A stretch of 8,265 nt of DNA from Actinotalea sp. (GTDB lineage: Bacteria; Actinomycetota; Actinomycetes; Actinomycetales; Cellulomonadaceae). The notes under the pieces are model-generated. The model had not been told where the DNA came from. It saw only the letters and a list, made by a program, of their open reading frames with translations, and did no database searches. A program made the position numbers and the translations under genes. Of the stretch, positions 1,470 through 8,125 are shown in pieces; the stretch's first letter is position 1; each line of letters opens with the position of its first letter. The stretch lies in the NCBI GenBank assembly GCA_014360395.1, contig JACIXM010000199.1, positions 1-8,265 on the forward strand, written 5' to 3'.

Positions 1470-1705
1470 CTCTGTCATCCGCGGCGGGGCCGCGACCTGA
1501 GAGTTTTGCCGGTCCGCCATGGCCCCGCTCGTCGCGGGGGCCCGGGGCGCGCCGACTTGCACCGTCGGTGGGGCGACGTCGTCGGACGCCGGCCCGCTTT
1601 CCAGAGTTGCCTCACCGCGGCGGTACCTGGGCCTGAGAGATTCCCGGGGAGGTTGCTCCTTCGGCGCCCTTGCCCTGGGTGGGCAGTGGGCTCTCCCGTC
1701 GCGGT
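1470..1705 (-). promoter_or_regulatory. Tandem glycine riboswitch (two aptamers) upstream of gcvP
   Basis: Aptamer 1 spans 1705-1614. Its P1 is ACCGCG (1705-1700) with CGCGGT (1619-1614), enclosing GGGAGAG, the hallmark GCCGAAGGAGCAA (1665-1653) and TCTCTCAGGC (1640-1631). Aptamer 2 spans 1606-1470. Its P1 is CTCTG (1606-1602) with CAGAG (1474-1470), enclosing CCGACGGTGCAAGTCGG (1568-1552) and AACTCTCAGGTC (1505-1494). The short linker and the CTCTG-to-CAGAG closure follow the known tandem architecture. Aptamer 2 departs slightly from consensus (CCGACGG for CCGAAGG). In known cases glycine binding turns the downstream gcv gene on, which fits a catabolic gene. Long ORFs across this stretch are incidental. 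Confidence 0.95.
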
Positions 1706-1740
1706 TCGAGCAGCGATTCAGTTGTGGTGGACCGACGCCC

Positions 1741-3676: not shown

Positions 3677-4207
3677 CTACGCCTGCTCTCGCTGCGCCAG
3701 GGCGCGGCGCACGTGCTCGACGATGCCGTCGGCCGCCGCCTCGACCTCGGCGAGCGTCGTCTCGAACCCGGCCTGGTCGCCGTACCAGGGGTCGTCCATG
3801 TCGAGGGCGTGCTCGGCCGCGTCGGCCGGGAACACGGGGTCGAAGGACCGGTACATGCGGATCCGCCCGACGACCGCGGGCTCCTCGTGCGCGATCCGGC
3901 GCAGCGCCCGCGCGTGGCTCGCCGTCATGGCCAGCACGAGGTCGTGCGAGGCGAGGTCGACCGCCGTGACCTGCCGTGCGCGGCGGCGGGGGACGTCGTA
4001 GCCGTGCGCCCGCAGGACCACCTGCGCGCGGTGGTCGATCGGGTTGCCGCGCTCCTCGTCGCTCACCCCGGTCGAGTCGACGACGACGGCGTCGCCCAGC
4101 CCGGCCTGCTCGAAGCGGTCGCGCAGGACGACCTCGGCCATCGGGGAGCGGCAGATGTTGCCGGTGCACACGGTCATGACGCGGTAGGGGCGGCTCACGC
4201 GCCCCAT
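3677..4207 (-). CDS. Low-molecular-weight protein tyrosine phosphatase
   Basis: The 176-residue protein dephosphorylates phosphotyrosine by a cysteinyl-phosphate mechanism. The P-loop VCTGNICRSPMAE starts near residue 13, with nucleophile Cys14 and Arg20 in the canonical C-X5-R-S arrangement. The general acid lies in DPWYGD (Asp139). All catalytic residues are present. The protein is soluble with no signal peptide. In actinobacteria such enzymes either act in regulation or are exported to modify host proteins; nothing here points to a specific role, and no tyrosine kinase gene is adjacent. The ATG at 4207 was chosen because it puts the P-loop at the usual distance from the N-terminus. A longer frame to 4342 crosses the hairpin repeats and is unlikely. 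A GTG at 4198 is an alternative start, and neither has a strong ribosome binding site. No TANNNT promoter is visible just upstream. Confidence 0.95.
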   Translation of the reverse strand: MGRVSRPYRVMTVCTGNICRSPMAEVVLRDRFEQAGLGDAVVVDSTGVSDEERGNPIDHRAQVVLRAHGYDVPRRRARQVTAVDLASHDLVLAMTASHARALRRIAHEEPAVVGRIRMYRSFDPVFPADAAEHALDMDDPWYGDQAGFETTLAEVEAAADGIVEHVRRALAQREQA

Positions 4208-4231
4208 TGTCGGGCACCACCGCCAGGACGG

Positions 4232-4344
4232 GAGCACGTGGGGAGCCCCTGGACCGGATGCCGGTGCACCGGCTCCCCGCCACACCGCCCGCCGAGCCCG
4301 TGGGGACGGCCCGGGCCGGATGTCGACGCACCCGCTCCCCACGA
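4232..4344. repeat. Two related hairpins in imperfect direct repeat (62-bp offset)
   Basis: Copy A (4232-4282) and copy B (4294-4344) match at 40 of 51 positions. Each folds: A pairs GTGGGGAGCC with GGCTCCCCGC (one wobble), B pairs CGTGGGGA with TCCCCACG and adds CGG/CCG across a one-base bulge. Substitutions between the copies keep the stems. A also contains the palindrome CCGGTGCACCGG at its tip. They lie in the 5' region of the phosphatase gene, and no T-run follows on either strand. Function unknown. Confidence 0.75.
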
Positions 4345-4428: not shown

Positions 4429-4455
4429 AGACGCGTCGGCGCCCGGGCAGGAGAA

Positions 4456-4519
4456 AGCCCGTGGGCTCCTGGTCTGGGACCAGGGTGTCGTGATGGACGA
4501 GTCACGACCCCCACGGGCT
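4456..4519 (-). terminator. Three-way-junction terminator-like structure
   Basis: The outer stem is a perfect 10 bp, AGCCCGTGGG (4519-4510) with CCCACGGGCT (4465-4456). Inside it are two perfect 7-bp hairpins. One is GTCGTGA (4508-4502, read in transcript sense) with TCACGAC (4493-4487). The other is CCTGGTC (4484-4478) with GACCAGG (4474-4468) and a 3-nt loop. The transcript then reads TTTCTCC, the only T-rich tail in this GC-rich interval, so termination is proposed on the minus strand. A branched fold is unusual for a simple terminator. Confidence 0.6.
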
Positions 4520-4596
4520 CCGGCGACTGCCTGGGTCTCGCTCGCCGCTCGAGGCGGGTCGGGACCGGAAGCACTCCGTCCGATGTTCTCGGGCGA

Positions 4597-4635
4597 CTAG
4601 CGGACAGTCACCTCACGCGTCCTGGATGAATTCAC
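4597..4635 (-). CDS. 12-codon ORF behind a near-perfect Shine-Dalgarno (possible leader peptide)
   Basis: The ORF reads GTG through TAG and encodes MNSSRTREVTVR. Support for translation is its setting: AGGAGG lies 10 nt before the GTG inside a 14-nt anti-SD match, and a strong promoter lies just upstream. There are three arginines, one encoded by AGG, which is expected to be rare in this genome. There is no run of one amino acid as in classical biosynthetic attenuators. Too short for codon statistics or homology. A competing minus-strand frame ends at 4613 in overlapping sequence but is an extension of antisense sequence within the lipoprotein gene. Confidence 0.5.
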   Translation of the reverse strand: MNSSRTREVTVR

Positions 4636-4639
4636 CGTC

Positions 4640-4653
4640 GGACCACCTCCTTT
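4640..4653 (-). promoter_or_regulatory. Extended Shine-Dalgarno complementary to the 16S rRNA 3' end
   Basis: AAAGGAGGTGGTCC pairs over all 14 positions with the 16S 3' end GGATCACCTCCTTT, with a single G-U wobble. Typical genes here have only 5-6 matching bases (GGGGAG, AGGAGG). The plus strand therefore resembles a 16S tail, but flanking bases do not match rRNA. Confidence 0.8.
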
Positions 4654-4666
4654 CCCGTGTGGCACG

Positions 4667-4695: not shown

Positions 4696-4730
4696 GAGGT
4701 TTGCGCGGTGCGGTCCTCAGCCGGTCCCCG

Positions 4731-4736
4731 TATGGT
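4731..4736 (+). promoter_or_regulatory. Weak candidate -10 for the lipoprotein gene
   Basis: TATGGT fits TANNNT and would start transcription near 4743, leaving a leader of about 54 nt before the ATG at 4797. No acceptable -35 lies 16-19 bp upstream, since the nearest candidate TTGCGC is 24 bp away. Assigned on position only. Confidence 0.25.
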
Positions 4737-4796
4737 CGTGCGGCCGGGCCGGTGCGTCCGGTGCCGTCGTCCGCCACCGTCAGGACCCAGGACCGC

Positions 4797-6740
4797 ATGC
4801 CTCGCTCCCTCCGGACCGCTCTCGTCGCCGTCACCGCCCTCGCCCTCGTCGGCTGCGCCGCCGTCGTCGCACCCGACGGCGAACGGGAGGAGGCCCCCAC
4901 CGCGAGCCCGACGCCGACACCGACGCCCGAGCCGCCGACCGTGCACGTCGGCGAGGTCGCGCTGCCCGACGCGGCGACGACGGTCCTCGACGCGACGGAC
5001 CCGGTCCAGGCCGCCGTCCGCACCAGCGAGGCCCTCTTCGCCACCGCCCCCGTCGCGGTGGTCGCCCCGGCCGACGACGCCGCGGCGCAGCTCCGGGCGG
5101 CCTCCGTCGCCGTGGCGCTCGGCGCGCCCCTCCTGCTGACCGCGGACGACGCCACGGCCGGCGACGGGAGCGAGCCGGCCGAGCCCTCCGAGAGCACCGA
5201 CGGCTCCGAGGACGGGACGGACGCAGGTGCGGACGCGCCCGCCACGCCCGACGGTGACGCCACGCGTGCGGAGCTGGAGCGGCTGGAGGTGCTGGCCGTC
5301 CTGACGGTCGGCGCCGTGGCTCTCGAGCTCGACGACGACGTCCTCGTCCTCCCCGCCCCCGACGACGACGCCGCCCTCGCCGACCTCGTCCGGCTCGAGC
5401 TCGCGGCGGCGGAGCCGGTGGCGGCCGGGTCGGAGACGGGAGCGGTCGTCGCCCTGGACCGGGACGCCCCGACGCTGCTGACGAGCGGCGCGGACACGCC
5501 CGACGCCACCGAGCCGGGAGACGCGGAGGGTGCCGCGCCGGAGGCCGATGACGCTGAGGCCGCAGAGGGCGCGGAGGGCGCAGCGACGGCTACGCCCGGA
5601 CCCACGGACGCGGCTGACCCCACACCGACCCCCCGGCCCACGGGCACGCCTGCGCCGGCGCCCACCGACGACGCCGACTCCGCCTGGCCCCTCACCGAGC
5701 TCCCCGAGGCGCCCGGGTCCGCAGCGGTCCTGGTCGCCGGCGGACCGCAGGACCTCGCCCCGGCCGCCACCGCGCGCGCGGCGGGCGTCGCCGTCGTCGT
5801 CGTGCCCGACGGTGACCCGCGCGCGACGAGCGCCACCGTGCAGACCCTCGCCGAGGCGGCCCCGGAGACCGTCGTGGCGGTCGGACCGGGCTTCGGCGCG
5901 GTGGAGGACCTGGAGTGGAAGGTCCGGACCGCGGCCACCGGCGTCGAGCTGCCGGGCGGCGGGCAGGTGCTCTTCCCGGGCCGTCGGATGATCGCGCTGT
6001 ACGGCACGCCCGGGACGGCGGCGCTGGGCAAGCTCGGGGAGCAGGACCTCGAGGGCAGCATCGCGCGCGCCCGGGGGCTGGCGGCGGAGTACCAGGAGCT
6101 GACGTCGGACGTCGTGGTGCCGGCGTTCGAGATCATCGTCACGATCGCGGCGCGGGAGGCCACGCCCGAGGGCAACTACTCCCGTGAGCTGCCCGTCGAG
6201 TCGTTCGTCCCGTGGGTCGAGGCGGCGCAGGACGCGGGCGTCTACGTCGTCCTCGACCTGCAGCCGGGCCGCACCGACTTCCTCACGCAGGCCCAGATGT
6301 ACGAGCCGCTCCTGCGCTACCCGAACGTCGGCCTGGCTCTGGACCCCGAGTGGCGACTGCTGCCGGACCAGGTGCACCTGCGCCAGATCGGGTCCGTCGA
6401 CGTCGACGAGGTCAACGCCGTGGCGGCCTGGCTCGCCGATCTGACGCGCGAGCACGCCCTGCCGCAGAAGCTGCTGATCCTGCACCAGTTCCGGCTGTCG
6501 ATGATCCGCGAGCGCGAGCGTCTGGACCTGTCACGCGAGGAGCTGGCGCTCATGGTGCACGTGGACGGGCAGGGCTCCCAGCCGGCCAAGCAGGACACCT
6601 GGCGGGCGCTGCGGGCGAACGCGCCGGAGGGCCTGTGGTGGGGCTGGAAGAACTTCGTCGACGAGGACTCGCCGATGCTCACGCCCGAGCAGACGTACGG
6701 CGGCGTGGACCCCGTGCCGGACTTCGTCAGCTACCAGTAG
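4797..6740 (+). CDS. Secreted lipoprotein with cell-wall-binding-repeat-like N-terminal region and barrel-like C-terminal domain
   Basis: The 647-residue protein starts MPRSLRTALVAVTALALVGC, a lipoprotein signal with lipobox LVGC and lipidated Cys20, so it should be anchored on the outer face of the membrane. A Pro/Thr spacer (about 33-48) follows. Residues 70-115 and 158-230 resemble cell-wall-binding repeat 2 sequence (alternating hydrophobic strands, LGAPLLL at 108-114). Two acidic low-complexity stretches interrupt it (about 117-157 and 230-296). From about 305 the sequence is compact and conserved-looking, with regularly spaced hydrophobic strands: RRMIALYG, FEIIVTIA, GVYVVLDLQPG, NVGLALDPEW, KLLILHQF, LALMVHVDGQG, GLWWGWKNF. 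This suggests an alpha/beta barrel, possibly hydrolase-like, but no catalytic pair is assigned. The ATG at 4797 places the signal peptide at the N-terminus; the 32 codons upstream to 4701 look untranslated. AGGA lies just before the start. A role at the cell envelope is likely, with the reaction or ligand unknown. Confidence 0.92.
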   Translation: MPRSLRTALVAVTALALVGCAAVVAPDGEREEAPTASPTPTPTPEPPTVHVGEVALPDAATTVLDATDPVQAAVRTSEALFATAPVAVVAPADDAAAQLRAASVAVALGAPLLLTADDATAGDGSEPAEPSESTDGSEDGTDAGADAPATPDGDATRAELERLEVLAVLTVGAVALELDDDVLVLPAPDDDAALADLVRLELAAAEPVAAGSETGAVVALDRDAPTLLTSGADTPDATEPGDAEGAAPEADDAEAAEGAEGAATATPGPTDAADPTPTPRPTGTPAPAPTDDADSAWPLTELPEAPGSAAVLVAGGPQDLAPAATARAAGVAVVVVPDGDPRATSATVQTLAEAAPETVVAVGPGFGAVEDLEWKVRTAATGVELPGGGQVLFPGRRMIALYGTPGTAALGKLGEQDLEGSIARARGLAAEYQELTSDVVVPAFEIIVTIAAREATPEGNYSRELPVESFVPWVEAAQDAGVYVVLDLQPGRTDFLTQAQMYEPLLRYPNVGLALDPEWRLLPDQVHLRQIGSVDVDEVNAVAAWLADLTREHALPQKLLILHQFRLSMIRERERLDLSREELALMVHVDGQGSQPAKQDTWRALRANAPEGLWWGWKNFVDEDSPMLTPEQTYGGVDPVPDFVSYQ

Positions 6741-6812
6741 TCACGCCGGCACTCGGGGCGTCGTCGACCCGCGGCGGCGGCGGACCGGGGCACTGGCGGA
6801 CCGGGCGCACGA

Positions 6813-6853
6813 CGACGCCCGGGGTACCGCCCTCCGCGGCACCCCGGGCGTCG
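6813..6853. terminator. Bidirectional terminator hairpin between convergent genes
   Basis: A perfect 13-bp stem pairs 6813-6825 (CGACGCCCGGGGT) with 6841-6853 (ACCCCGGGCGTCG). One mismatch and four more pairs follow, and the loop is CCTCC. It lies between the stop codons at 6740 (plus strand) and 6865 (minus strand), where a two-way terminator is expected. There is no T-run on either side, as is common in high-GC actinobacteria. Just left of it are two copies of a 16-bp unit beginning GGCGGACCGGG at 6779 and 6795. Confidence 0.8.
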
Positions 6854-6864
6854 AGGTCCTTGCG

Positions 6865-7017
6865 TCAGGCCGTCTTGGCCTGGTGGGGCAGGAAGCCCAC
6901 GAGCGCGCGCTCGGCGGCGATGGCGGCCCAGCGGGCGATGACCTGCGGCGGAACAGCGGCGGCGACGTCCTCGCGTGCAGTGGAGGTCCCGGCGTTGGTG
7001 ACGGCGAAATCACCCAT
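6865..7017 (-). CDS. Unrecognised 50-residue protein downstream of a c-di-GMP-I riboswitch
   Basis: The ORF begins MGDFAVTNAGTSTARED and ends LVGFLPHQAKTA. I do not recognise the family. It is Ala-rich (14 of 50) with no Cys, signal peptide or clear membrane segment. A segment from about 24 to 43, PQVIARWAAIAAERALVGFL, looks like one amphipathic helix. Nearly every codon ends in G or C, in contrast to the AT-richer leader upstream, which supports genuine coding. The ATG at 7017 is the first start after the riboswitch, and AGG lies 8 nt upstream in GAAGCAGG, partly overlapping the 3' strand of riboswitch helix P1. The same frame stays open upstream to 7338, but that extension runs through the aptamer and is rejected. 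The gene is followed by a strong terminator, so it appears monocistronic and is probably the only target of the riboswitch. Confidence 0.8.
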   Translation of the reverse strand: MGDFAVTNAGTSTAREDVAAAVPPQVIARWAAIAAERALVGFLPHQAKTA

Positions 7018-7029
7018 GATGTGACCTGC

Positions 7030-7119
7030 TTCCGTTCGGTAGCCCGGCTGACCCAGATCGGCCCCGTGGCTTTGCGTCCCCGCCTTTCGACGGGTTTGCC
7101 CTTGTCGCTGACAACGGAA
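7030..7119 (-). promoter_or_regulatory. Cyclic di-GMP-I (GEMM-I) riboswitch
   Basis: The 90-nt element is closed by a perfect 7-bp P1, TTCCGTT (7119-7113) with AACGGAA (7036-7030). Inside, ACAAGGGCAAACC leads into a hairpin CCCGUC/GGCGGG capped by a GAAA tetraloop (7088-7085). Then come GGACGCAAAGCC and a second, receptor-side helix ending CAGCCGGGCTACCG. Aligned to the Vibrio cholerae Vc2 aptamer, the ligand-contacting bases are all present: G20 (7100), A47 (7073) and the C92 equivalent (7038). G at position 20 favours c-di-GMP over the cGAMP-selective GEMM-Ib variant, which has A there. The P1 3' strand is adjacent to the ribosome binding site of the 50-codon gene, suggesting translational control, and no terminator lies between. 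No TANNNT promoter is visible in the leader (7120-7260), so an alternative sigma factor or a distant start is possible. Confidence 0.95.
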
Positions 7120-7260
7120 CTCTCCTCCTGTGACTTGAGTGATGTCAGCGGTCTGAAGATCGACTTCACCCTTTCGGAGCAGTTCTTTCACCCGCTCGTC
7201 CAGCGCGTCGTCGTTCGGTGGTCCCAGAACGGCGTCGCCACGACCGACGGCGACGGCCGG

Positions 7261-7278
7261 GGACGGACTGGTCCGTCC
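7261..7278 (-). terminator. Inverted repeat abutting the phzF-family stop codon
   Basis: GGACGGAC and GTCCGTCC form a perfect 8-bp inverted repeat with a 2-nt centre, realistically a 7-bp stem with loop CTGG. It begins 1 nt past the PhzF-family stop codon. It probably ends or stabilises that transcript and separates it from the riboswitch gene downstream. No T-run follows. Confidence 0.55.
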
Positions 7279-7279
7279 G

Positions 7280-8125
7280 TCAGAGAGCCGCCGCGCCCTC
7301 CAGGACGGTGACGCTCCCCCCGCCGACCCAGACGACACCGTCGACGGCCTCGACGTGCACCCGTCCCGCGCGACCCAGCGCCGTGCCCTGGGCGGCTACG
7401 TACCGCTCGGCCACCCGGCCCTCCTCGATCAGCCACTGCCCGACGGCGGCGTTCAGGGAACCGGTCACCGGGTCCTCGGCGAAGCCGCCGGGCCCGGGGA
7501 AGAACCCGCGGACCTCCAGCGCGACACCCTCGGCGTCGTCAGCGGGCCGGGGTCCGACGACGCCGACGAACCGCTCACCCAGCAGCTCGGCGCGGGGCCG
7601 GGCGGCCAGGACGTCGTCGGCGGAGCGGAGCAGGAGCACCTGCCACGGCGGGCCGTTGTCGCACCAGGCGTGGGCGACGACGGCGTCGTCGGGCAGGCCC
7701 AGCCCCGCCGCGATCGTCCCCGCCTCCTCGCCGTCCAGCGGGCCGGTGCGCCGACGCTCCGGTGCCGCGAAGGCGAGGGTGCCGCTCGGGTCACGCCGGA
7801 CCGTCACCAGGCCGGCGCCGCACTCCTGGACGACGACGTCGCCCCGGGGCACACCCCCGGCCGCGAGCCACGCGTGGCAGGTCCCGAGCGTCGGGTGGCC
7901 GGCGAAGGGCAGCTCCTGCGCCGCAGTGAAGATCCGGACCGCGTAGTCGGCGTCCGGGTGCGTCGGCGGCAGGAGGAAGGTCGCCTCGGACAGGTTGGTC
8001 CACGCGGTGAAGCGCTGCATCTGCTCGGTGGTCAGGCCCTCGGCGTCGAGGACGACGGCGACCGGGTTGCCGAGCAGCGGGGTCGTCGTGAAGACGTCGA
8101 CCTGGGCGAAGCGGCGGGTGATCAT
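7280..8125 (-). CDS. PhzF-family isomerase/epimerase
   Basis: The 281-residue protein has the usual PhzF length and a DapF-like two-lobed fold is expected. VDVFTTTPLLGNPVAVVLDAEGL (about 9-31) opens the N-terminal lobe. NLSEATFLLPP carries the catalytic Glu (Glu47, equivalent to PhzF Glu45). ELPFAGHPTLG (71-81) carries the conserved GHPT with His77. EDPVTGSLNAAVGQWL (217-232) carries the Asp of the C-terminal lobe. All key residues are present, so it should be an active proton-shuttling isomerase; the substrate is unknown. No phenazine genes are adjacent, so it is not a phenazine enzyme on context. The ATG at 8125 (MITRRFAQVDVF) matches family N-termini; a longer frame to 8221 adds low-complexity sequence. 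There is no ribosome binding site before the ATG. Confidence 0.95.
   Translation of the reverse strand: MITRRFAQVDVFTTTPLLGNPVAVVLDAEGLTTEQMQRFTAWTNLSEATFLLPPTHPDADYAVRIFTAAQELPFAGHPTLGTCHAWLAAGGVPRGDVVVQECGAGLVTVRRDPSGTLAFAAPERRRTGPLDGEEAGTIAAGLGLPDDAVVAHAWCDNGPPWQVLLLRSADDVLAARPRAELLGERFVGVVGPRPADDAEGVALEVRGFFPGPGGFAEDPVTGSLNAAVGQWLIEEGRVAERYVAAQGTALGRAGRVHVEAVDGVVWVGGGSVTVLEGAAAL

Follow-up and report, generated by a model that had tools for sequence, protein, structure and literature searches.

What might a bacterium control with a c-di-GMP riboswitch that stands in front of one very small gene? The window (the whole stretch of DNA analysed here, 8,265 nucleotides from an Actinotalea genome) raises this question, since a preliminary description claimed that a c-di-GMP-I class aptamer is followed directly by a single, unrecognised protein of 50 residues. 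This claim is borne out. Here we ask whether aptamer and gene stay together in other genomes, whether the protein itself matters and what it could act on.

The aptamer and the gene behind it

The aptamer lies at 7034–7109 on the minus strand. It matches the Rfam covariance model for c-di-GMP-I-GGC riboswitches (RF03167) with 72.7 bits, where the gathering score is 59, and the match covers the full length of the model (positions 1–80 of 80, E = 3.4e-16). The sister model for c-di-GMP-I (RF01051, cut-off 35) gives 71.3 bits. The covariance check hence agrees with the class assigned earlier, and the reported GAAA tetraloop is present as well, as a CGAAAG hairpin with a GAAA loop in the aligned aptamer sequence. 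Judged by these matches, the window's riboswitch is an ordinary member of its Rfam family. Folding 19 leaders gives a mean of 0.61 for the Shine-Dalgarno sequence being unpaired; no clear alternative fold and no switch direction are visible. By eye, TTCCGTT and AACGGAA could pair around the aptamer in the window and in genome G017, a pairing that we set aside as it hinges on where the RNA starts.

The gene of the orphan protein occupies 6865–7017 on the minus strand (ATG at 7017, stop included), an assignment that rests on its relatives and on dN/dS. Between aptamer and gene lies a 16-nt spacer (7018–7033, minus strand) with a predicted Shine-Dalgarno-like AGCAGG at 7025–7030, 7 nt before the ATG. 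The gap had previously been put at 12 nt; measured, it is 16 nt. The remark that codons ending in G or C begin right after the riboswitch was a fair one: third-position GC is 0.86 in the reading frame versus 0.60 in the 30 in-frame codons upstream.

Next after the small gene comes a convergent gene on the plus strand (4701–6740). The space between the two holds a predicted GC-rich hairpin of 18 pairs (6813–6853, minus strand), a possible terminator 3′ of the small gene that, because of its site between convergent genes, could serve either of them. Of the “strong terminator” described before, the hairpin stands, but a scan of 6700–7330 found no T run and the assignment to the small gene is ambiguous. 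A sigma-70 scan of the same interval found no promoter. The window holds two further RNA matches. A glycine riboswitch (1611–1708, minus strand, 58.4 bits, cut-off 32) precedes a gcvP-like gene at 1–1413 on the same strand, and Ms_IGR-5, an actinobacterial sRNA family, is matched at 4448–4660 (minus strand, 78.2 bits, cut-off 45), upstream of a gene resembling low-molecular-weight phosphatases (3677–4342).

Conservation of the small protein

The nearest small proteins within the genus are those of G004 and G017 (78–80%). Compared with the window, differences at codon positions 1, 2 and 3 number 7, 3 and 12 for G017, and 7, 5 and 13 for G004. Among the three closest genomes dN/dS is 0.19–0.29; two other close pairs give 0.15 and 0.34 and three distant pairs 0.56–0.67, so that all eight pairs tried fall between 0.15 and 0.67. 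The 50-codon frame, whose conservation the preliminary description had proposed to check, is conserved, and by these sequence comparisons purifying selection acts on the small open reading frame in close relatives. The dN/dS values rule out a non-coding frame.

A profile search returned 89 proteins at E up to 1, and 85 of them are 45–62 residues long. Named sources, in keeping with Actinotalea as GTDB defines it, include Actinotalea ferrariae, A. fermentans, Cellulomonas carbonis, C. bogoriensis and an Isoptericola-named strain; no relatives were found in viral contigs, and plasmids gave no match. We aligned 84 of the 89 proteins, leaving out P0021, P0027, P0074, P0088 and P0089 for their length or weakness. 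Invariant over all 84 are M1, A28, R29, A31, A34 and P44. In the genus the frames (47–58 codons) share the core PPQVLARWAAxAxxRA...PxQ. The window's protein has no Pfam match, and among 19 members the only Pfam match is a weak one to Lsr2 (E = 0.2) in one of them. PDB sequences hold no match at E 1. A single-chain structure model predicts one helix at residues 24–42, with a mean pLDDT of 69 (54, 54, 89, 83 and 64 by block along the protein). The helix is not clearly amphipathic.

Aptamer and gene across genomes

An aptamer stands just before a frame with the shared core in all 19 Actinotalea genomes. A search for the small gene at E 0.01 matches 17 of the 19. In the two that it misses, G003 and G011, the frame behind the aptamer has diverged, and we therefore count the gene as present throughout the genus. 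Its ATG lies 12–17 nt past the RF01051 match; the frames of G003 and G011 could also start 6 nt after the match, at an ATG 9 nt ahead of the aligned one. It had been asked whether homologues keep the riboswitch upstream, and they do, throughout the 19 genomes of the genus and in remote relatives from three more genera.

RF03167 finds matches in 116 of the 221 genomes of the family (7 of 25 genera). Outside Actinotalea we read 79 sites among the matches listed, 19 sorted by hand and 60 by script: 44 precede bldC, 24 the small gene and 11 other genes. Among these listed matches, 20 of the 24 small genes are from Cellulomonas, and 1 and 3 are from two other genera. A 63-residue frame in G181 that ends in VPTQER was left among the others and not counted as a small gene. 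Compared as profiles, the Actinotalea set and 20 distinct outside members score 31.5 (probability 90.5%), whereas the maximum in 200 column shuffles is 16.6. Since the comparison lies so far above the shuffles, we treat both sets as one family.

Within the genus, RF01051 has 85 matches: 34 before bldC-like genes (three of them decayed), 19 before the small gene and 32 before others. The commonest identified target of the aptamer in Actinotalea is thus bldC. Among the 32 other targets are EAL-domain genes, genes of large secreted proteins and short frames with a secreted-protein gene behind them. The window's own genome has two matches, the aptamer described here and L002 (G000:C340:5746-5822, plus strand, 52.4 bits), which lies before a bldC homologue. 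The solved structures closest to the BldC of this genome are 6ama and 6amk.

Several of these loci are worth recording in their own right. The decayed or altered bldC copies behind an aptamer are at G007:C22:139703 (L102), G015:C22:26208 (L115) and G009:C1:1537444 (L100); two of the three have no BldC wing sequence and end in LLSGLPTQVR. At L093 (G014:C31:119791-120301, minus strand) there is a tandem pair of aptamer-bldC-like cassettes, with flagellin-type genes about 4 kb away. At L070–L080 and further loci of the “other” class, several aptamers are followed by frames of 23–43 codons and then by the gene of a secreted protein of 130–150 residues (MNSRTRKAASVALVALALVGVRTASAAG...); the fragment of it that we tried has no Pfam match.

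A promoter box upstream of the aptamer

At 7166–7181 (minus strand), 55 nt before the aptamer, the window has a predicted box TGCTCCGAAAGGGTGA, one mismatch away from the BldM-WhiI Group II consensus of Streptomyces, TGnnCCGnnCGGGTGA (PMC4125116). A second GGGTGA lies nearby at 7188–7193. We scanned the 250 nt upstream of each aptamer for TGnnCCGnnCGGGTGR (last base A or G) and took controls from downstream DNA. With one mismatch allowed, the box occurs at 17 of 19 small-gene loci (G011 and G012 have none), at 9 of 34 bldC-like loci, at 10 of 32 others and in 9 of 1640 control segments. Exact boxes number 9 of 19, 2 of 34, 4 of 32 and 0 of 1640, respectively. In the 19 Actinotalea genomes TGNNCCGNNCGGGTGR occurs 341 times, versus 78 for the reversed control, an excess that points to a wider regulon of a BldM-WhiI-like kind. 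A sigma-28-like promoter in the clade of the window was also considered, by eye.

Flagellar genes and the sigma factor

We found flhA in 16 of the 19 Actinotalea genomes; it is absent from the window's genome (G000), G004 and G017. In five genomes flhA and the small gene sit on different contigs, and in all 11 genomes where they share one contig the small gene follows flhA on the same strand at a distance of 11–27 kb. The intervening stretch in G012 holds csrA-, cheA-, cheW-, cheB-, cheR- and cheY-like genes (several of them named by eye) and, on the opposite strand, a VanY gene. Seven of the ten genomes checked keep the small gene and have no fliG: G000, G004, G017 and Cellulomonas G061, G045, G101 and G062. 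We therefore reject the idea that the gene is no more than a flagellar component. What muddies the loss of flagella is a Flagellin_N match in G004 (E = 1.3e-27); the assemblies of G000 and G004 are drafts in 545 and 630 contigs, whereas that of G017 comprises 6.

A gene for a WhiG/FliA-type sigma factor is present in 19 of 19 Actinotalea genomes, including those without flagella, and in G017 a FlgN gene is kept beside it. The sigma gene scores below the curated FliA_WhiG cut-off (152.9 versus 189.6 bits). The best PDB match of the protein, 6pfv, is entered as RNA polymerase sigma factor; we take it to be Streptomyces WhiG. The sigma factors of the genus (L232–L250) have a tail of about 68 residues after region 4, in which AYFAxVAARAA is conserved and VPxQ mostly present. 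A VPxQ-type motif occurs in 16 of 19 Actinotalea tails and 11 of 23 Cellulomonas tails. The motif is short, and it also ends 40 of 62 BldC-like proteins.

Two faint resemblances of the conserved core

In BldC, Val23 and Trp31 belong to the oligomer interface of a head-to-tail filament and Arg30 contacts DNA (PMC5859096). The motif V-x-P-x-x-V/I-x-R-W-A of the small protein aligns with V23-D-P-K-T-V28-T-R30-W31-A of BldC. In Cellulomonas members the R of RWA is missing, and RLA takes the place of RWA in G003 and G011. Comparison with hhalign gave scores of 14.9, 16.8 and 16.2 at probabilities of 2.3–4.7%; out of 120 column shuffles each, 1, 0 and 0 came up to these scores. For a smaller BldC set, decayed copies included, the probability is 12.8%. 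The alignment needs a gap of 17 columns. Against the BldC profile, at least 7.9 is reached by 8 of 104 small proteins, and at least 8.0 by 3 of 4000 shuffles. Against the Actinotalea profile, sequence by sequence, the best BldC-like protein reaches 11.0, the best decayed copy 11.3 and the best sigma tail 10.9, where the best of 4000 shuffles has 10.8; single members are thus barely above the best shuffle (11.0 versus 10.2–10.8). With a merged profile BldC, at 9.7, stays below the best shuffle. None of the 19 members matches the BldC model or a helix-turn-helix model of Pfam.

The sigma tail (AYFAxVAARAA...VPTQR) fares better. Here hhalign scores are 21–22 and probabilities 22.7–28.4%; in each of two comparisons 0 of 200 shuffles reached the score, and in three others, with 120 shuffles each, 1, 0 and 0 did. 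In the merged profile the best sigma tails score 15.0 and the best shuffle 11.9. By score, the sigma tail is hence the stronger resemblance of the two. Both the likeness of the core to the BldC recognition helix and that to the WhiG/FliA-type tail are weak: they lie above most shuffles and far below proof of homology.

Discussion

Our results suggest that c-di-GMP likely sets the amount of small protein that is made. Because only 16 nt and no terminator separate the aptamer from the ATG, and because the Shine-Dalgarno-like stretch directly follows the closing stem, control would act at the start of translation, where the aptamer would set the synthesis of the small protein. c-di-GMP could either raise or lower it. 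Transcription of the gene would be set by a BldM-WhiI-like factor. The small protein, which belongs to no known family, is probably a regulator.

What it regulates is harder to say. The reading that we prefer, with a probability of roughly 0.3, is that translation depends on c-di-GMP through the predicted aptamer 16 nt upstream, and that the small protein modulates BldC, whose own gene also follows this kind of aptamer. In that case bldC and its modulator would both depend on c-di-GMP. The steps that we hold least firmly concern the contact between the two proteins. The helix with V-x-P-x-x-V/I-x-R-W-A may mimic the recognition helix of BldC and keep the Val and Trp of the subunit contact; having neither the wing nor the other half of the contact, the small protein might cap or break head-to-tail BldC filaments. 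It would be a distinctly long shot to propose, in addition, that the small protein descends from a riboswitch-bldC cassette, by loss of the wing and retention of the oligomer-contact helix, and became a cap set by c-di-GMP that breaks BldC filaments. If this descent were true, a regulator and its antagonist would be under copies of the same aptamer.

Several other explanations compete with the BldC reading. One could argue for mimicry of the WhiG/FliA-type sigma factor at its C-terminal tail: the small protein would compete for whatever binds that tail, which would tie c-di-GMP to sigma. The scores of the tail, beyond nearly all shuffles, the VPxQ-type motifs and the retention of the sigma factor throughout the genus, flagella or not, speak for this idea. 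We nevertheless consider it rather improbable, given that the hhalign probability is low, that VPxQ is shared with so many BldC-like proteins and that no such sigma gene is found at E 1e-40 in the Cellulomonas genomes G061, G045, G101 and G062, all of which have the small gene. The small gene is thus kept without flagella and, in these four genomes, without sigma; the aptamer was read before bldC in two of them (G061 and G101). It is on the absence of sigma from the four genomes, and on bldC standing behind the aptamer in Actinotalea, G061 and G101, that we prefer BldC to sigma as the target, with low confidence. The small protein might instead be an accessory or a brake of flagellar motility or chemotaxis, its level set by c-di-GMP. 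Its constant place behind flhA, with chemotaxis-like genes in between in G012, fits such a role, but the seven genomes that keep it without fliG do not, and the Cellulomonas loci read do not show, within 1.5 kb or less of it, the gene that is next to it in Actinotalea. We regard a motility role as unlikely. A little easier to entertain, if still on the unlikely side, is a new small effector of some other process (surface, envelope or pili) that has nothing to do with BldC or sigma. The protein matches no family, and other targets of the aptamer in the genus include secreted and EAL-domain proteins, although nothing positive points to a process of this kind and the helix shows no clear amphipathic character.

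Two more alternatives we find very hard to believe. If the frame were a mere leader, the RNA or its translation would matter and the protein would not. The small size, the loose N-terminal half and the frames of 23–43 codons that precede secreted-protein genes behind other aptamers of the genus would suit a leader, but a dN/dS of 0.15–0.34 in five close pairs and the invariant M, A, R, A, A and P columns over 84 members would not, and in the window only the convergent gene comes after the frame. Likewise, the GEMM-I class has relatives that sense other cyclic dinucleotides such as cGAMP, and the aptamer could be one of them. Against this stand the matches to both c-di-GMP models, well above cut-off, and the base that we take to be the ligand-contacting G (by eye), which is G in the window's aptamer.

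Should the preferred reading hold, what would follow? In Streptomyces, two proteins, BldD and WhiG, carry the action of c-di-GMP on the Bld/Whi circuit (PMC9530166). Were BldC or a WhiG-type sigma factor the target of the small protein, c-di-GMP would reach this circuit through RNA too. As the gene is kept without flagella, its role could be followed separately from swimming, in strains that are non-motile. By sequence match, the genes found behind c-di-GMP riboswitches now include bldC and that of a conserved orphan small protein. In the literature searched, which left most subscription papers outside, we recognised no paper on this small gene or on a bldC riboswitch; as far as this search shows, a small orphan protein under the same aptamer as bldC seems not to have been described.

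How does the locus compare with known systems? RF03167 and c-di-GMP-I (RF01051) belong to the same clan (CL00126), and like other c-di-GMP-I-GGC riboswitches the window's aptamer matches at full length and lies 5′ of and close to a start codon. The usual c-di-GMP-I targets named in the preliminary description are genes for motility, adhesion, pili or secretion, whereas here the target is an orphan small protein. The promoters of the small gene resemble Streptomyces BldM-WhiI Group II promoters in their box, which 17 of 19 have within one mismatch, but the last base in Actinotalea is often G instead of the A of the consensus. The WhiG/FliA-type sigma factor and its anti-sigma factor RsiG (PMC8325347) form a circuit in which c-di-GMP takes part, as it would at this locus, and the tail of the Actinotalea sigma factor weakly resembles the small protein; unlike the sigma factor, the small protein has no sigma domain, and four Cellulomonas genomes have it without the sigma gene. 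A further comparison is with BldC of Streptomyces, a MerR-like protein of 68 residues (6ama, 6amk), a homologue of which stands behind the same aptamer in the window's genome. The small protein weakly resembles BldC in its V-x-P-x-x-V-x-R-W-A core and also in its PxQ-type C-terminus. It differs from BldC in having neither a wing nor a Pfam helix-turn-helix match, and the sequence similarity falls short of establishing homology.
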